This document shows positions 46,363-53,738 of a DNA stretch of 64,000 nt, in pieces; positions within the stretch are counted from its first letter, which is position 1; each line of letters begins with the position of its first letter. The translations under genes and the position numbers were made by a program. The stretch covers positions 4,650,001 to 4,714,000 of the forward strand of contig NZ_CP146022.1 in the NCBI RefSeq assembly GCF_036967205.1, given 5' to 3'. Below the pieces are notes generated by a model. It saw only the letters and a program-made list of their open reading frames with translations. It was not told where the DNA came from and made no database searches. Source of the stretch: Streptomyces sp. Q6. GTDB taxonomy: Bacteria > Actinomycetota > Actinomycetes > Streptomycetales > Streptomycetaceae.

Positions 46363-48894
<2,532 letters not shown>

Positions 48895-48916
48895 CCCCTC
48901 GGGGGTGAGCCTGTGT

Positions 48917-48963
48917 ACGGGTGGGCCCGGACCGTTCTTCACGAACGGTCCGGGCCCACCCGT
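48917..48963. terminator. Bidirectional terminator between clpC and the NACHT gene
   Basis: A perfect 21-bp stem (48917-48937 with 48943-48963) has a 5-nt loop. It starts 23 nt after clpC and ends 30 nt before the stop of the convergent NACHT gene. Confidence 0.92.
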
Positions 48964-48993
48964 TTGTCCTGCGGTGCCTGCCGCCCGCGTCGG

Positions 48994-51900
48994 TCAGCGG
49001 CGGTGGACCGTGACCTCCGCGTTCGGGAAGAGGGGGGCGTACGCGGCATGGTCCTGGGGGGCCTGACGGCCGGGGTGGATGTCGACGGTGCGGACGTTCG
49101 GGAAGAGGGCGGCGCGGGCGGTGATCGTGTCCGGGCCGCCGGGGAGGTAGAGGCCGAGGTCCGTGATGCGGGGGAGGGCGGGGAGCGGGCCGCCGGGGAG
49201 GATGTCGGCGGCCAGGTAGAGGCGGGTGAGGGCGGGGTGAGCGGCGATTTCGTGCCAGTCCTCCGCCTCCAGGAGTCCGAGACCCGCGCTCAGGCTGAGG
49301 TAGGTCAGGCCGGTGAGGGCGCCGATGCCGATCAGGCCGGTCTCGGTGATCGCGCCCTGGGTCAGGTAGAGGCGCTGGAGCCGGTCCGACCGCGGCAGAT
49401 GGTCGGTGAGCGTGCCGCCGGGCAGGGCGTGACCGATCGTCAGGGAGGCCAGTCCGGTCAGCGCCGGCAGGCCCCGGGTGAGCGGCTGCTGAGGTACGCC
49501 GAGGTGGGTCAGGGCGAGGTCGGCGAGCGGCGTCAGGTCCGTGACGTGGTGGCAGCGGGTGAGGGACAGGGTGCGCAGGGCGGGCAGGTCGCGGACCGGG
49601 CGCAGGTCCCGTACGTCCGGGTTGTCGGCCAGGGCGAGAGAGGTGAGCCGGGCCGGATCGGTGCCGGCGAAGATCTCGTCCCAGCTGTACGGGCCGGTCA
49701 GGTCGAGCCGCGGCCAGGGCGGCAGGGCGCGCGTCACGTCCCACTGCTCCCGGTTGCGTACGGTCAGGTCGAGCCGGTCGCGGTCCAGGTGGGCGAGGAC
49801 CTCGTCGGCGTACTCCCGCGGGTCGAACCGGTGCCAGGTGCCGACCAGTTGTCTGCGGACGGTGAGGGACGGGTGGCCGCGGAACTTCTTCAGTACGGGG
49901 AGCGCCGCCTCGCCGCCGAGGCGTGAGGCCGTCACCGTCACCGCGTGGGCCTCCTCCTCCGACAGGCCCTCGGGGCCCGGCAGGAGTTCGAGGACCAGGG
50001 GGCCCGCCTGGGCCAGTTGTTCCGCCTCGGTGACCGTGCGGGGCGGGATCAGGGCCGCGGCTCGGGCCCGTACCTCCTCGACGACCTCCTGGTCGACCGA
50101 CGTGGCGTCCTGGAGGCAGGCGAGGGCGAGGAGCGTCAGCCGGACGGACGGCGACGACAGGAGGCCGCGCAGCAGGCGGCCGCGTTCCCGGGTGCGGGCG
50201 TGGGCGACGGCCATCCGCAGGACGTCCTCCCACTGGGTGTCGGCGGCGTGGCCGAGCAGCACGTCGAGGTGGCCCTCCTCGACGGCGTACCGGGCGGCGA
50301 GATGGTCGAGGAACGTGCGGTGCGCGAAGTCGACGGTGCCGGGCGCGGGGCTGCGCAGCACGCCGCTGCGCAGCAGCAGGTGGCGCAGGATCGCGGGGGC
50401 GTCGCCCTGGGCGGCGGCGCCGGGCACGGACGGCAGGGCGCGTTCGAGGAGGGCGAGGGCGGTCTCCTCGTCCATCTCGGTGCGGCCCGCGAGGACCAGG
50501 GAGTAGGCGAGGCGCTGGAGCAGTTCGATCTGGTCCTCGGTCTCCAGGTCGATGCCGTCGAGCCCGCTCATGCCCCGCTGCCGGTCCCGCTCGGTGAGGA
50601 TCAGCTGGAGCGCGGCGTCGTACAGGGCCTTGCGGCGCGGCGGGAGGTAGCCGCGGCGGGCCCGGTGCAGCGCGCAGATCAGACCGCACATCAGGGGGTT
50701 GGTGGCGAGCCGGGCCAGGTCGGGCTTGGTGCGCAGCGCGTCGAGGAGCGGCTCCTCGTGCTCGGGGGCGTCGGCGGCGGTGTGCCAGCGCCGGACGAAG
50801 GACGTGACGCGGGCGCGGTCCATCGGGGCGAGCGTGAGGTCGGCGAAGCCGTCGGCGGCCAGCCAGTCGGGGCGTACGGCGGTGGGGCGCGCGGTGAGCA
50901 GCCAGCGGTTGCCGGGGTAGCCGCGGACCAGGGCGAGCAGCCAGTCGCGGACCCGGGCGCGGTCGGCGGCCGGCACCTCGTCGAGGCCGTCGATCAGGAC
51001 GAGGGCGCGGCCGTCGGTCAGGACGCGCTCGGCCCAGCCGTCGGGCGGGGTGTGCGGGCAGTCCGTCGCGGCCAGGAAGTCGCCGGGGGCGGGCAGCCGG
51101 GCCGCGCGGATCAGGGTGCGCAGGGGAAGCACGTAGGGGAGCCGGTCCGGTGCCGTGAGTGCCAGCCACTGGACCAGGGTGCTCTTGCCGGAGCCGGCCG
51201 CGCCGCGCAGCAGCACGCGCGGATGCCGTACGAGGATGTCCTCCGCGGCGAGCCGGACGGTGCTGGGGGTGCCGTCGCCGCCGGGGTCCGGTGTCTCGTC
51301 GTGGGTGGTCTCCAGGCCGAGGTAGGCGACGTCGAGGGGCCAGGTCTCGGCGGTGTCGCGGACGTCGAGGCCGAAGATCGTGAGGCGGTTGTGGCGGTGG
51401 GCCAGATAGCGCCGGTAGCGCTCCTCGAACGTGCGGTCCTGGGCCGGGCGGTCGTCGCGGGCGAGCAGGGCGTCGAGTTTGGCGAGCGTCTCGGCCTGGC
51501 CGCGGCTCTGCTCGACGAGCGTGCGCGCGACGAAGGTCGACCGCTGCGTGAAGAAGTGCAGCAGGTGCAGGCAGGCCCACTCGGTGAGCGAGTCGAGGAA
51601 GTACGAGGCGTCGGCGGACAGGCCCGGGTCGGGGGCCGCGCGGCGCAGGGCGCGGGCCAGTTCGCGGTGGCCGAGCCGGACGGCCTGCACGTCGTCCATG
51701 GCGAGGTCGCCGAGCGCGCCGAGCGTGCGGGCCAGGGCGTGGGCGACCGCCTCCGTCTCGTCGTACGGGAACGGGGGTTCGCCGGGGCCGTCCACGGCGG
51801 CGCCGACCAGCTTGCGGGCCAGCCGAGCCAGGTCGGTGTCGGTGAGCGTGCGTTTCTCGCCGCGGAAGGAGACGAGCCCCGAGAGCCGGACGGGGCGGTC

Positions 51901-51999
51901 CGTGAGGCCGGCGCCGGGTCCTTCCTGGACGAGCAGTTTCCGGAGCGCGGGGGCGATCACGCTCGATGCGAGCCGGGTGCCGAGGACAGCGGGATCCAT
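48994..51999 (-). CDS. NACHT NTPase with leucine-rich repeats (bacterial NLR-like protein)
   Basis: 1001-residue STAND NTPase. Residues 1-200 form an alpha-helical N-terminal domain (NNH7-like, unconfirmed), with no obvious nuclease or protease motif. The NACHT core has Walker A GAAGSGKST at 266-274 and Walker B ALVLIDGLDE at about 332-341, then the usual helical sensor region. The C-terminal 240 residues are LRR-like, with units such as LPALRTLSLTRCHHVTDLTPL and LTGLTYLSLSAGLGLL. Similar bacterial NACHT proteins defend against phages. It stands alone, convergent with clpC. Its trigger and killing mechanism are unknown. Confidence 0.88.
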   Translation of the reverse strand: MDPAVLGTRLASSVIAPALRKLLVQEGPGAGLTDRPVRLSGLVSFRGEKRTLTDTDLARLARKLVGAAVDGPGEPPFPYDETEAVAHALARTLGALGDLAMDDVQAVRLGHRELARALRRAAPDPGLSADASYFLDSLTEWACLHLLHFFTQRSTFVARTLVEQSRGQAETLAKLDALLARDDRPAQDRTFEERYRRYLAHRHNRLTIFGLDVRDTAETWPLDVAYLGLETTHDETPDPGGDGTPSTVRLAAEDILVRHPRVLLRGAAGSGKSTLVQWLALTAPDRLPYVLPLRTLIRAARLPAPGDFLAATDCPHTPPDGWAERVLTDGRALVLIDGLDEVPAADRARVRDWLLALVRGYPGNRWLLTARPTAVRPDWLAADGFADLTLAPMDRARVTSFVRRWHTAADAPEHEEPLLDALRTKPDLARLATNPLMCGLICALHRARRGYLPPRRKALYDAALQLILTERDRQRGMSGLDGIDLETEDQIELLQRLAYSLVLAGRTEMDEETALALLERALPSVPGAAAQGDAPAILRHLLLRSGVLRSPAPGTVDFAHRTFLDHLAARYAVEEGHLDVLLGHAADTQWEDVLRMAVAHARTRERGRLLRGLLSSPSVRLTLLALACLQDATSVDQEVVEEVRARAAALIPPRTVTEAEQLAQAGPLVLELLPGPEGLSEEEAHAVTVTASRLGGEAALPVLKKFRGHPSLTVRRQLVGTWHRFDPREYADEVLAHLDRDRLDLTVRNREQWDVTRALPPWPRLDLTGPYSWDEIFAGTDPARLTSLALADNPDVRDLRPVRDLPALRTLSLTRCHHVTDLTPLADLALTHLGVPQQPLTRGLPALTGLASLTIGHALPGGTLTDHLPRSDRLQRLYLTQGAITETGLIGIGALTGLTYLSLSAGLGLLEAEDWHEIAAHPALTRLYLAADILPGGPLPALPRITDLGLYLPGGPDTITARAALFPNVRTVDIHPGRQAPQDHAAYAPLFPNAEVTVHRR

Positions 52000-52478
52000 G
52001 GCCCGGGAGCGTAGTCCCGGTCACACCTCCCGCGGGTTGGATCTTGCCCTCCGGTGACATGCCGCACAGGCGATTTGTCCGGTACTAGGGGAAATAGTGG
52101 ACAGGTCGGTACGAGGGGGGCTGTTACACGGTCGACGGGTTCTGGTGATTTGTCCGATTCGGTGGAGCGGGGGTGGCCGAGGGCGCGTGCGGCCTGGGGG
52201 CGCGTTCGTGAAGTGGGCTTAAACGCGAGATCAGGGGATAAATCCGGCGGACCGACGAGCGGGGTGCGGAGGTGTCAAGCGCCTTCCGTTCCGCCCCCGC
52301 GGTACGAGGCGGCGTAGTAGATCGGGCTTTTGGGGCGGGGCGGGGCGGGGGTTACCAAGGGATGGCCGACCCGGCAGCACGAGGACGTGTGCCGGGTCCC
52401 TTCATGCCCGTCAGGTCCGCTCGACCCCCGGCGGGTGTCAGGGCCCGAATGTCCCCGAAGCTCGAAGAGGTCTCCTGT
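52000..52478. other. 479-bp gene-free region between NACHT and M23 genes
   Basis: The two genes are divergent here. I see no good gene, and no clear c-di-AMP riboswitch. TTTGTCCG occurs twice (near 52074 and 52150), and GAAGAGG ends close to the M23 start. Confidence 0.6.
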
Positions 52479-53135
52479 ATGTCGAAGCGCACCACGCCCC
52501 AGAACCCCGGCACGTCGAAGCTCCGCAAGCGCGCCGCCGTCATGGCCGCGGGATTCGGAGTCTCCGCCGTCCTGGGCACCGGGGCCGCGTTCGCCGCCGA
52601 CACCGCCCAGACCGTCGCCCTCCCGGGTGCCGCCGCCGCGTCCCTCGACGCCCAGGCCGCCGCCCAGGCCAAGGCCGCCTCCTCCGCCAAGGAAGCCGCC
52701 GCGAAGAAGTCCTCCTCGTGGGTCGACCCGGTCACGCACTACTCGCTGTCCGCCGGCTACGCGCAGGGCGGCAGCATGTGGTCCACCGGCAAGCACTCCG
52801 GCCAGGACTTCGCGGTCCCCGTCGGCACCAACGTCATGGCCGTGCACGGCGGCACCGTCGTGAAGACCGGCCCCAACGGTGCCGGTGACGGACCCGCGTA
52901 CGGCAACGCCGTCGTGATCAAGCACAGCGACGGCACGTACTCGCAGTACGCGCACCTGTCGCGGATCGACGTCAAGGTCGGCCAGACCGTGAGCACGGGT
53001 CAGCACATCGCGCTGTCCGGCAACACCGGCAACTCCAGCGGCCCGCACCTGCACTTCGAGATCCGTACGACCGCGAACTACGGGTCGGCCGTCAACCCCG
53101 TCGCCTTCCTGAAGTCGCAGGGCGTCACCGTCTGA
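52479..53135 (+). CDS. Secreted M23-family metallopeptidase
   Basis: 218-residue exported endopeptidase that probably cleaves peptidoglycan cross-bridges. A signal peptide covers residues 1-36 (RKRAAVMAAGFGVSAVLGTGAAFAAD). A short Ala/Lys linker leads to a lysostaphin-like domain with the zinc ligands in HSGQDF near 107 and HLHFE near 189, plus GTVVKTG and GNAVVIKH between. AGAGG lies about 8 nt before the ATG. It is convergent with a TetR gene, 21 nt between stops. It may join the envelope-maintenance theme of the region. Confidence 0.93.
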   Translation: MSKRTTPQNPGTSKLRKRAAVMAAGFGVSAVLGTGAAFAADTAQTVALPGAAAASLDAQAAAQAKAASSAKEAAAKKSSSWVDPVTHYSLSAGYAQGGSMWSTGKHSGQDFAVPVGTNVMAVHGGTVVKTGPNGAGDGPAYGNAVVIKHSDGTYSQYAHLSRIDVKVGQTVSTGQHIALSGNTGNSSGPHLHFEIRTTANYGSAVNPVAFLKSQGVTV

Positions 53136-53156
53136 CCTGACCGGTGAGCACCGCGC

Positions 53157-53738
53157 TCAGTGCTTGTGGGCCTGGGTGACCAGGTCCGTGGCGACCTCGA
53201 GGATGGCCAACCGCTTCTCCTCGGGGTCGCCTTCGACGTCCTTGAGGACGAACATCCCGGCGTGCATGGAGAACAGCGCGCTGAAGCAGCGGACCCGGTC
53301 GGTGAGTTCGACGTCCTCGGGGACCAGCGTGCCGAGCAGGTCCTTCATGCGGTCCTTGAAGTTCTCGCCGATGCTCAGCTCGCGCATCTGCGCCTGGTTC
53401 TCCTGCATGAACCGGAACAGCGGCGCCGCGTCCGCCAGCGCCAGGCTGTAACGGGTGAGGATCTCCCGCTTGGTCTCCAGGGTCGGCGGCTGCTCCTTCG
53501 CCCAGGCGATCAGCGCGTCGATCGGCGTCATCAGGTCGTCGAAGAGGCTGACGACGATGTCTTCCTTGGTCTTGAAGTGGTAGTAGAGCGCGGCCTTCGT
53601 CACGTCGAGGCGCTCGGCGATCTCCCGCAGCGAGGTCTTCTCGTACCCCTGCTCGGCGATGAGTTCCAGGGCGACGTCCTGAATGCGCTGGCGAGTGTTC
53701 CCGCGGCGCTGGTGCGGCTTGCTGGTGCCCGTGATCAT
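53157..53738 (-). CDS. TetR-family transcriptional repressor of an MFS efflux gene
   Basis: 193-residue regulator. The N-terminal HTH (residues 10-56) reads NTRQRIQDVALELIAEQGYEKTSLREIAERLDVTKAALYYHFKTKEDIVVSLFDD, the textbook TetR motif. The rest is an all-helical ligand-binding and dimerisation domain. It is divergent from an MFS exporter, with a large paired inverted repeat between them, so it most likely represses the exporter and itself. The inducer would be a drug or metabolite; it is not known. Confidence 0.95.
   Translation of the reverse strand: MITGTSKPHQRRGNTRQRIQDVALELIAEQGYEKTSLREIAERLDVTKAALYYHFKTKEDIVVSLFDDLMTPIDALIAWAKEQPPTLETKREILTRYSLALADAAPLFRFMQENQAQMRELSIGENFKDRMKDLLGTLVPEDVELTDRVRCFSALFSMHAGMFVLKDVEGDPEEKRLAILEVATDLVTQAHKH

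Follow-up and report, generated by a model that had tools for sequence, protein, structure and literature searches.

Avs proteins are STAND NTPases with exchangeable N-terminal effectors, and the bNACHT proteins, reportedly described by Kibby and colleagues in 2023, are said to be bacterial NACHT proteins that act against phages. Here we analyse a protein with a related architecture, encoded on the minus strand at positions 48994-51999 of a 64,000-nucleotide stretch of Streptomyces sp. Q6 DNA (contig NZ_CP146022.1, positions 4,650,001 to 4,714,000; the window). The gene lies between what we take to be clpC, a name that comes from an earlier sequence-only reading of the window, and an open reading frame (ORF) that the same reading called an M23 peptidase.

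Several described systems provide points of comparison. In the available part of PMC12169576, bNACHT proteins of clade 6 are described as carrying N-terminal nucleases together with NCH1 domains, and those of clade 14 as having short C-terminal domains without discernible effectors; phage defence by bNACHT25 is reported to require its N-terminal nuclease. LypA, according to the accessible text of PMC13236601, has a trypsin-like domain joined to an ATPase domain. Effector displacement is presented as a known theme of bacterial STAND conflict systems in the available portion of PMC8195603, and that of PMC7159879 points to fungal incompatibility systems with NACHT proteins as a parallel. The protein studied here combines an NNH1 domain, a NACHT domain and leucine-rich repeats (LRRs), an architecture that matches neither the clade 6 nor the clade 14 description in the accessible text of PMC12169576. 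The literature searched held nothing on a slot for nucleotide-binding, leucine-rich repeat (NLR) proteins linked to clpC, which is weak evidence of novelty given that most subscription papers lay outside the search.

We consider it probable that the gene encodes a STAND (NLR-like) immune sensor that occupies a fixed slot in Streptomycetaceae, with the LRR region sensing and NNH1 acting as an effector or signalling domain. The data directly support the architecture, the fixed slot, the turnover and decay of copies, an alternative N-terminus, the hypervariability of the LRR region and a conflict between the trees of the slot gene and its flanks.

Architecture and variation of the repeats

The gene is a single open frame with an ATG start, and translation of the plus strand across the same span hits a stop. 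Its coordinates agree with those of the sequence-only reading, which named no strand. Its first residues, MDPAVLG.RLAS, are common to close relatives in the alignment. Because full-length open relatives exist (47-77% identity) and the ratio of nonsynonymous to synonymous substitution rates (dN/dS) is well below 1 for NNH1 and NACHT in 13 pairs, the frame is coding beyond chance. Both the 1001-residue ORF and the intact Walker A and Walker B motifs pointed out by the sequence-only reading are borne out by the translation (Table 1).

Three Pfam domains exceed their curated cut-offs. NNH1 (PF22733) covers residues 7-180 with its entire profile (positions 1-177 of 177; E 1.2e-57, 195.3 bits against a cut-off of 27), NACHT (PF05729) covers residues 262-408 (83.3 bits against 26.7), and LRR_4 covers residues 784-826 (E 2.1e-07). 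The protein is therefore a NACHT STAND NTPase with both Walker motifs intact, belongs to the NNH1 family with a full domain N-terminal to NACHT, and has the NLR order of NACHT followed by C-terminal LRRs, which agrees with the NACHT-LRR assignment made earlier. An LRR-like C-terminus is further substantiated by a 12-sequence profile that matches LRR structures in the PDB, mostly at profile positions ~790-1000 and, among the best 60 of 165 matches, including a Rab/Roco-family protein (E 3.1e-19), internalins and LRR receptors. The window protein is a bacterial relative of animal and fungal NACHT-type immune receptors.

The N-terminal domain had been described as helical and without a recognized motif; the first part stands, and the second does not, as the domain is recognized by Pfam as NNH1. 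Sequence comparison revealed no NNH1 relative of solved structure (best E 0.41), and residues such as D103, R153 and S154 are kept in 96-97% of 69 rows. Within the window protein we found no strong membrane helix (the top 19-residue hydropathy, 1.55, falls in the LRR region) and no Pfam match to CARD or PYD at E 1 or better. NNH1 is taken to be either the effector itself or an oligomerization domain, and residues 421-620 presumably play a winged-helix/ARC2-type role.

Variation is concentrated at the C-terminus. Among the 17 distinct members of the window's clade, mean pairwise identity is 70.0% for NNH1, 60.8% for residues 181-250, 73.5% for NACHT, 74.5% for residues 421-620, 61.5% for residues 621-780 and 39.6% for the LRR region. 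Nine hand-picked LxxLxL repeats, comprising 27 scaffold and 45 exposed positions, were used to measure entropy. Exposed positions average 2.46 bits versus 0.66 for scaffold positions (Mann-Whitney p 2e-11), and 31 of the 45 lie above the 95th percentile of residues 1-720.

Substitution rates follow the same division. In all of 13 hand-picked sister pairs, one of which (L174/L097) is of the short type described below, the C-terminal LRR region exceeds NACHT in dN/dS (0.40-0.86 versus 0.09-0.30). Synonymous divergence (dS) is also higher in the LRR region in 12 of the 13, which hints at imported LRR segments. When 12 pairs are pooled, dN/dS is 0.70 at exposed positions (5-95% range 0.57-0.88), 0.22 at scaffold positions and 0.21 in the NACHT region; single pairs exceed 1 at exposed positions in three of 12 cases. 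This fast variation at exposed sites makes the LRR region a likely recognition surface, as had been proposed.

Table 1. Features of the locus in window coordinates
Feature	Positions	Strand	Basis
clpC, left slot landmark	46363..48894	+	ORF list; clpC search of genus genomes
20-bp stem with 5-base loop between the 3′ ends of clpC and the NACHT gene		48918..48962		Terminator-like on + strand
NNH1-NACHT-LRR STAND protein, 1001 aa (stop included)	48994..51999	-	ORF and Pfam
Leucine-rich repeats, residues 781-1001, hypervariable	48997..49659	-	Pfam, identity, entropy, PDB profile matches
Post-NACHT region, residues 421-620, most conserved part	50140..50739	-	Mean pairwise identity 74.5% (window's clade)
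NACHT NTPase, residues 262-408	50776..51216	-	Pfam PF05729, E 2.2e-23
Walker B region ALVLIDGLDE, residues 332-341	50977..51006	-	Translation and alignment
Walker A GAAGSGKS, residues 266-273	51181..51204	-	Translation; P-loop conserved in alignment
Segment before the P-loop common to types A and B, ~residues 187-229, FE..Y...IFGLD...W.LD.AYL.LE	51313..51441	-	Two-type alignments
NNH1 (NACHT N-terminal helical domain 1), residues 7-180; effector/signalling position	51460..51981	-	Pfam PF22733
Intergenic region upstream of the NACHT and M23 genes; kept in empty-slot relative; right edge of exchangeable stretch	52040..52480		blastn versus L044
M23 peptidase ORF, right slot landmark; listed start codon, true start probably further in	52272..53135	+	

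A resident slot between clpC and M23

The clpC-M23 interval is a resident slot of this protein family. The search for clpC succeeded in 149 of 150 genus genomes, and stretches of up to 18-20 kb downstream of it were taken from 147, the window's own included; the other two (G119 and G078), in which clpC runs up to the edge of a contig, were excluded. A further five stretches were too short, leaving 142 informative loci. An intact NACHT ORF was required to have at least 800 amino acids and more than 400 bits and to precede an M23, TetR or MFS landmark, or to lie anywhere in the stretch where the landmark was absent. By this measure the slot is filled in 73 of the 142 loci, with 61 single, nine double, two triple and one quadruple arrangements that together hold 89 intact ORFs. 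One further intact ORF beyond the landmark at locus L112 brings the number to 90, and all 90 are on the strand opposite to clpC, tail-to-tail with it.

The 69 loci that lack an intact copy comprise 61 empty slots, five with obvious remnants and three with neither a NACHT gene nor a landmark within 18 kb. After upstream ORF ends were trimmed, NACHT pieces (tblastn E < 1e-3) were detected in 13 of 66 gene-less, landmark-bearing slots, the five remnants included, and each of the 13 is on the NACHT strand. Of 55 control stretches of matched size, taken further downstream at those loci that spanned at least 12 kb, none held such a piece.

An accessory insertion unique to the source strain is ruled out, as the best 30 rows of the genus search, compared by hand, are all at clpC. 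Equally, the 69 loci without an intact copy rule out a universal core gene, and an orthologue in all Streptomyces is not what we observe. The sequence-only reading had suggested an accessory insertion between clpC and M23: the patchy presence it implies is real, and the insertion proves to be the occupant of a resident slot, filled in 73 of 142 loci and marked by decayed pieces in 13 of 66.

The slot extends beyond the genus. A family draw gave 38 genomes outside the genus with a relative, two of which (G338 and G399) lacked a clpC match. In 24 of the 38, representing six genera, pairs selected by eye place the relative tail-to-tail with clpC at a distance of 92-4230 bases. Recurrence in six other genera, together with gene-less slots that in some cases retain pieces, indicates that the slot is old and its occupant often lost.

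In a tree of the NACHT core, the window gene falls in an 18-row clade found only at the clpC slot. Twenty-three rows labelled as lying elsewhere, 20 of them hand-picked from the genus search, are interspersed through the tree and require 10 label changes, six forced by well supported branches. Two of these rows (L197 and L207) are still beside TetR/MFS; in addition, L041 is missing one flank, and L037 and L115 come from the same strain. The copies at L197 and L207, beside the TetR/MFS landmarks and far from clpC, are probable rearrangement breakpoints inside the slot.

A second tree was built from the flanking MFS and TetR proteins at the 94 loci with both. Presence and absence of the NACHT gene need 25 changes on this tree, at least 19 of them forced by well supported branches, compared to a shuffled mean of 30.6; presence thus follows descent weakly. 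The window groups with L115, L037, L038, L035 and L039 in the flank tree (99/98) and with L035, L039, L075 and L076 in the NACHT tree (100/100). Each dataset rejects the grouping of the other in the approximately unbiased (AU) test (p 2.4e-10 and 4.7e-09; log-likelihood gaps 95 and 232), with p-values that are optimistic because the groups were named after the core tree had been inspected. The conflict would be accounted for if alleles had been replaced by way of the flanks or if old duplicates had been sorted. A mosaic within the gene between the L115/L038 and L039/L075/L076 lineages was also considered, and no breakpoint was found (permutation p 1.0).

Only 99 bases separate the ends of clpC and the NACHT gene, with a stem-loop between them that both genes presumably use. 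Similar hairpins of differing sequence follow clpC, by eye, in nearly all of 40 slots, filled or empty; at L073 the hairpin is absent. The second-nearest of the 94 flank-tree loci to the window, L044, has no NACHT gene, and its blastn similarity to the window breaks off at 48901, immediately after the clpC stop codon. The match picks up again at 52040, which is 41 bases upstream of the start of the NACHT gene.

An acid-phosphatase-like HAD gene stands in place of NACHT at L044 (282-959), on the NACHT strand. Apart from NACHT, this is the gene that commonly occupies the slot, being present in 33 of the 69 loci without NACHT and 15 of the 73 with it. Its presence in 48 of 142 slots would suit an ordinary accessory gene without an immune role, the LRR region drifting under relaxed constraint and the slot being merely a tolerated insertion point behind a strong terminator. 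Likewise, pooled dN/dS at exposed sites does not exceed 1, although three of 12 single pairs do. However, the same gene family is found on the same strand in several genera, NNH1 and NACHT are clearly constrained (dN/dS 0.09-0.44 across the 13 pairs), and scaffold positions are kept where exposed positions change. We regard this explanation as most improbable.

Other contents of the slot were seen at individual loci. A YhcG-type PDDEXK nuclease (DUF1016) gene lies within the NACHT array at L067 (5980-7059), and the large insert there also has ORFs that resemble, by look only and unscanned, an esterase and regulators. This was the one large insert that was read. A c-di-AMP riboswitch might be expected upstream of M23; Rfam gave nothing at the gathering score in 48000-53500.

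Alternative N-termini and relatives elsewhere

Two N-termini are found on the same chassis. In 68 of the 90 ORFs (type A) the alignment with the window protein begins within its first 40 residues; in the other 22 (type B) it begins only later, mostly at about residue 187, and from this point the linker, NACHT and C-terminus are common to both types. Pfam scans covered 11 of the 90 (seven type A, four type B) and found NNH1 in all seven type A proteins and a trypsin-like domain in three of the four type B proteins (L053, L155 and L088). The fourth, L080, has no Pfam trypsin match, and its alignment row nonetheless shows the triad motifs. His, Asp and Ser motifs, assigned by analogy with trypsin, are present in 20 of the 21 type B ORFs that can be aligned upstream of the P-loop, with L192 lacking the first two (His and Asp) in the frame used. 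Two type B proteins were put through PADLOC, where the protease parts of defence models matched L155 (LmuA, E 1.2e-11; RT-Protease_XI, E 2e-07) and L053 (RT-Protease_XI, E 4e-07). Type B forms one clade of 22 rows in the NACHT core tree (support 100 by a quick method), which indicates that the alternative N-terminus is old rather than repeatedly exchanged.

Some type A proteins are short. Twenty-one of the 68 have fewer than 900 amino acids, and the three scanned (L111, L067:12951 and L056:3681) have no LRR match. At L067, L095, L104, L124, L150 and L178 they lie beside longer copies, an arrangement that recalls sensor-helper pairs; others are alone. Three loci (L077, L125 and L142) carry both types intact, and each time type B is nearer clpC.

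NNH1 itself appeared in 12 genomes of a class draw of 197, two of them outside the genus. The scan gave 18 rows, 16 in frames of at least 860 amino acids and two that are clpC-slot remnants. Fifteen of the 16 long frames overlap or share a frame with a window-protein match; the other, in G226, was not checked for NACHT. A role for NNH1 as an adaptor common to separate effectors is unsupported, as with G226 unchecked the class scan gave no stand-alone copy other than the slot remnants.

Relatives of the whole protein are frequent in the genus, with 112 of 150 genomes having one at E 1e-20; copy numbers from this search are lower bounds because five candidates per genome were scored. In the class draw, 11 genomes had a match at E 1e-30, one of them among the ~181 outside the genus. 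Relatives are present in 14 of 72,556 plasmid records, all Streptomyces or Embleya, and phage-borne copies were not found in 50,697 phage records at E 1e-10.

The host genome consists of an 8.57 Mb chromosome and a 386 kb second contig, which is probably a plasmid. Three places match at E 0.001: the window gene, an NNH1-NACHT-LRR protein at 6.07 Mb (36% identity) and a protein on the 386 kb contig (43%). This last relative (L190:8860-11805, at ~93.9-96.8 kb of contig C2) has an XRE-type helix-turn-helix (HTH) domain, NACHT and a weak LRR match, so that the window's own host also carries a third kind of N-terminus on this chassis.

Such a protein is what might be expected if the window protein were a regulatory STAND, in which the NACHT switch senses a host signal by way of the LRR region and acts on transcription or proteostasis, perhaps together with ClpC. 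The position beside clpC is conserved from genus to genus, and NNH1 has neither a strongly hydrophobic segment nor a relative of solved structure to suggest that it is a toxin. A core regulator, however, would not be expected to be missing in intact form from 69 of 142 loci and to be lost repeatedly; its LRR region would hardly be hypervariable, type B has a protease, and the gene is on the strand opposite to clpC with a strong stem-loop between them. We consider a regulatory function unlikely.

Proposed function and comparison with known systems

A sequence of events can be envisaged for the proposed intracellular immune sensor. The LRR end would bind a foreign or infection-made ligand, as its diversification suggests. 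Ligand binding would then, by analogy with the wider family, open the NACHT switch and permit nucleotide-dependent oligomerization. Clustering could activate the N-terminal domain, NNH1 in the window copy and the trypsin-like serine protease in type B, whose output would be proteolysis. As a result, the invaded hyphal compartment would probably stop growing or die. A role of the window protein in phage defence is plausible, and phages are the most likely invader, with plasmids, conjugative elements and hyphal fusion as alternatives.

Streptomyces hosts are hyphal and conjugate, which fits a system that recognizes non-phage foreign DNA or non-kin, such as conjugative plasmids, integrative elements or fusing hyphae, much as NLRs do in fungal heterokaryon incompatibility. 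Relatives are rare outside the family (the single non-genus genome of the class draw), and birth-and-death with diversification takes place at one slot. The fungal NACHT incompatibility parallels named in the available part of PMC7159879 point in the same direction. However, phage sensing predicts the same pattern, and relatives reside in the 14 plasmid records themselves, though these may serve the plasmid. We judge recognition of non-phage foreign DNA or of non-kin to be quite unlikely.

Several observations weigh against an immune sensor. Positive selection on exposed LRR sites is unsupported given the pooled dN/dS of 0.70, and relaxed constraint could produce part of the exposed-site pattern. 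NACHT and flank identities correlate (Spearman 0.45, 136 pairs), so there is a vertical signal too. The relative on the second contig has an HTH domain, which points to a regulatory role for that one protein. In the window the gene is alone in its slot, with clpC convergent and M23 divergent as its neighbours. PADLOC gave no convincing match for the window protein (only mad8, E 0.035 over 42 residues), NCBIfam gave no over-threshold defence match, and NNH1 is not known to have any activity, with nothing on its function in the literature searched.

Extending the proposed sensor role to the whole family is more tentative. It is possible, though we would not presume it, that the slot is an 'R-gene-like' locus at which NNH1 and trypsin-like receptors turn over through birth, death and replacement of alleles and LRR faces diversify, with NNH1 as a hitherto undescribed type of effector or signalling domain in NLRs, directed against phages or other hyphal invaders. 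If so, bacteria would have a chromosomal immune-receptor locus like plant resistance-gene and fungal incompatibility loci, sharing with them a fixed address, changing alleles, a hypervariable LRR face and different output domains. The 89 intact ORFs at one address offer natural alleles for asking what bacterial LRR-bearing NLRs recognize, and two output domains on one chassis are available for laboratory comparison.

Among the described systems, bNACHT proteins resemble the window protein in architecture: both are single-gene STAND proteins with a central NACHT, an N-terminal effector position and a presumed C-terminal sensing region. As far as the available text of PMC12169576 goes, bNACHT25 differs in having a nuclease where the window protein has NNH1, and bNACHT proteins have NCH1 or SNaCT C-termini in contrast to the LRRs and fixed clpC slot found here. 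EruA (NF058535, 'NACHT domain-containing antiphage protein') matches residues 331-571 (E 1.4e-11); the best matching stretch spans the NACHT core only, and its score of 43.3 bits compares with a cut-off of 1000. Avs proteins are likewise STAND, and Avs1b has a weak match (E 0.0047) to the trypsin domain of one type B protein, whereas PADLOC gave no Avs match for the window protein.

The CARD-NLR/LypABC systems, as presented in the accessible part of PMC13236601, also couple an NLR-like switch with trypsin-like proteases, and LypA resembles type B in its fusion of a trypsin-like domain to an ATPase domain. Those systems comprise several genes in one operon, whereas the window protein is the product of a single gene, has no CARD match and ends in LRRs. 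Metazoan NLRs share the order of effector or signalling domain, NACHT and LRR, but the window protein gave no CARD or PYD match at E 1 or better. NACHT and LRR were presumably joined independently in the window protein and in metazoan NLRs.

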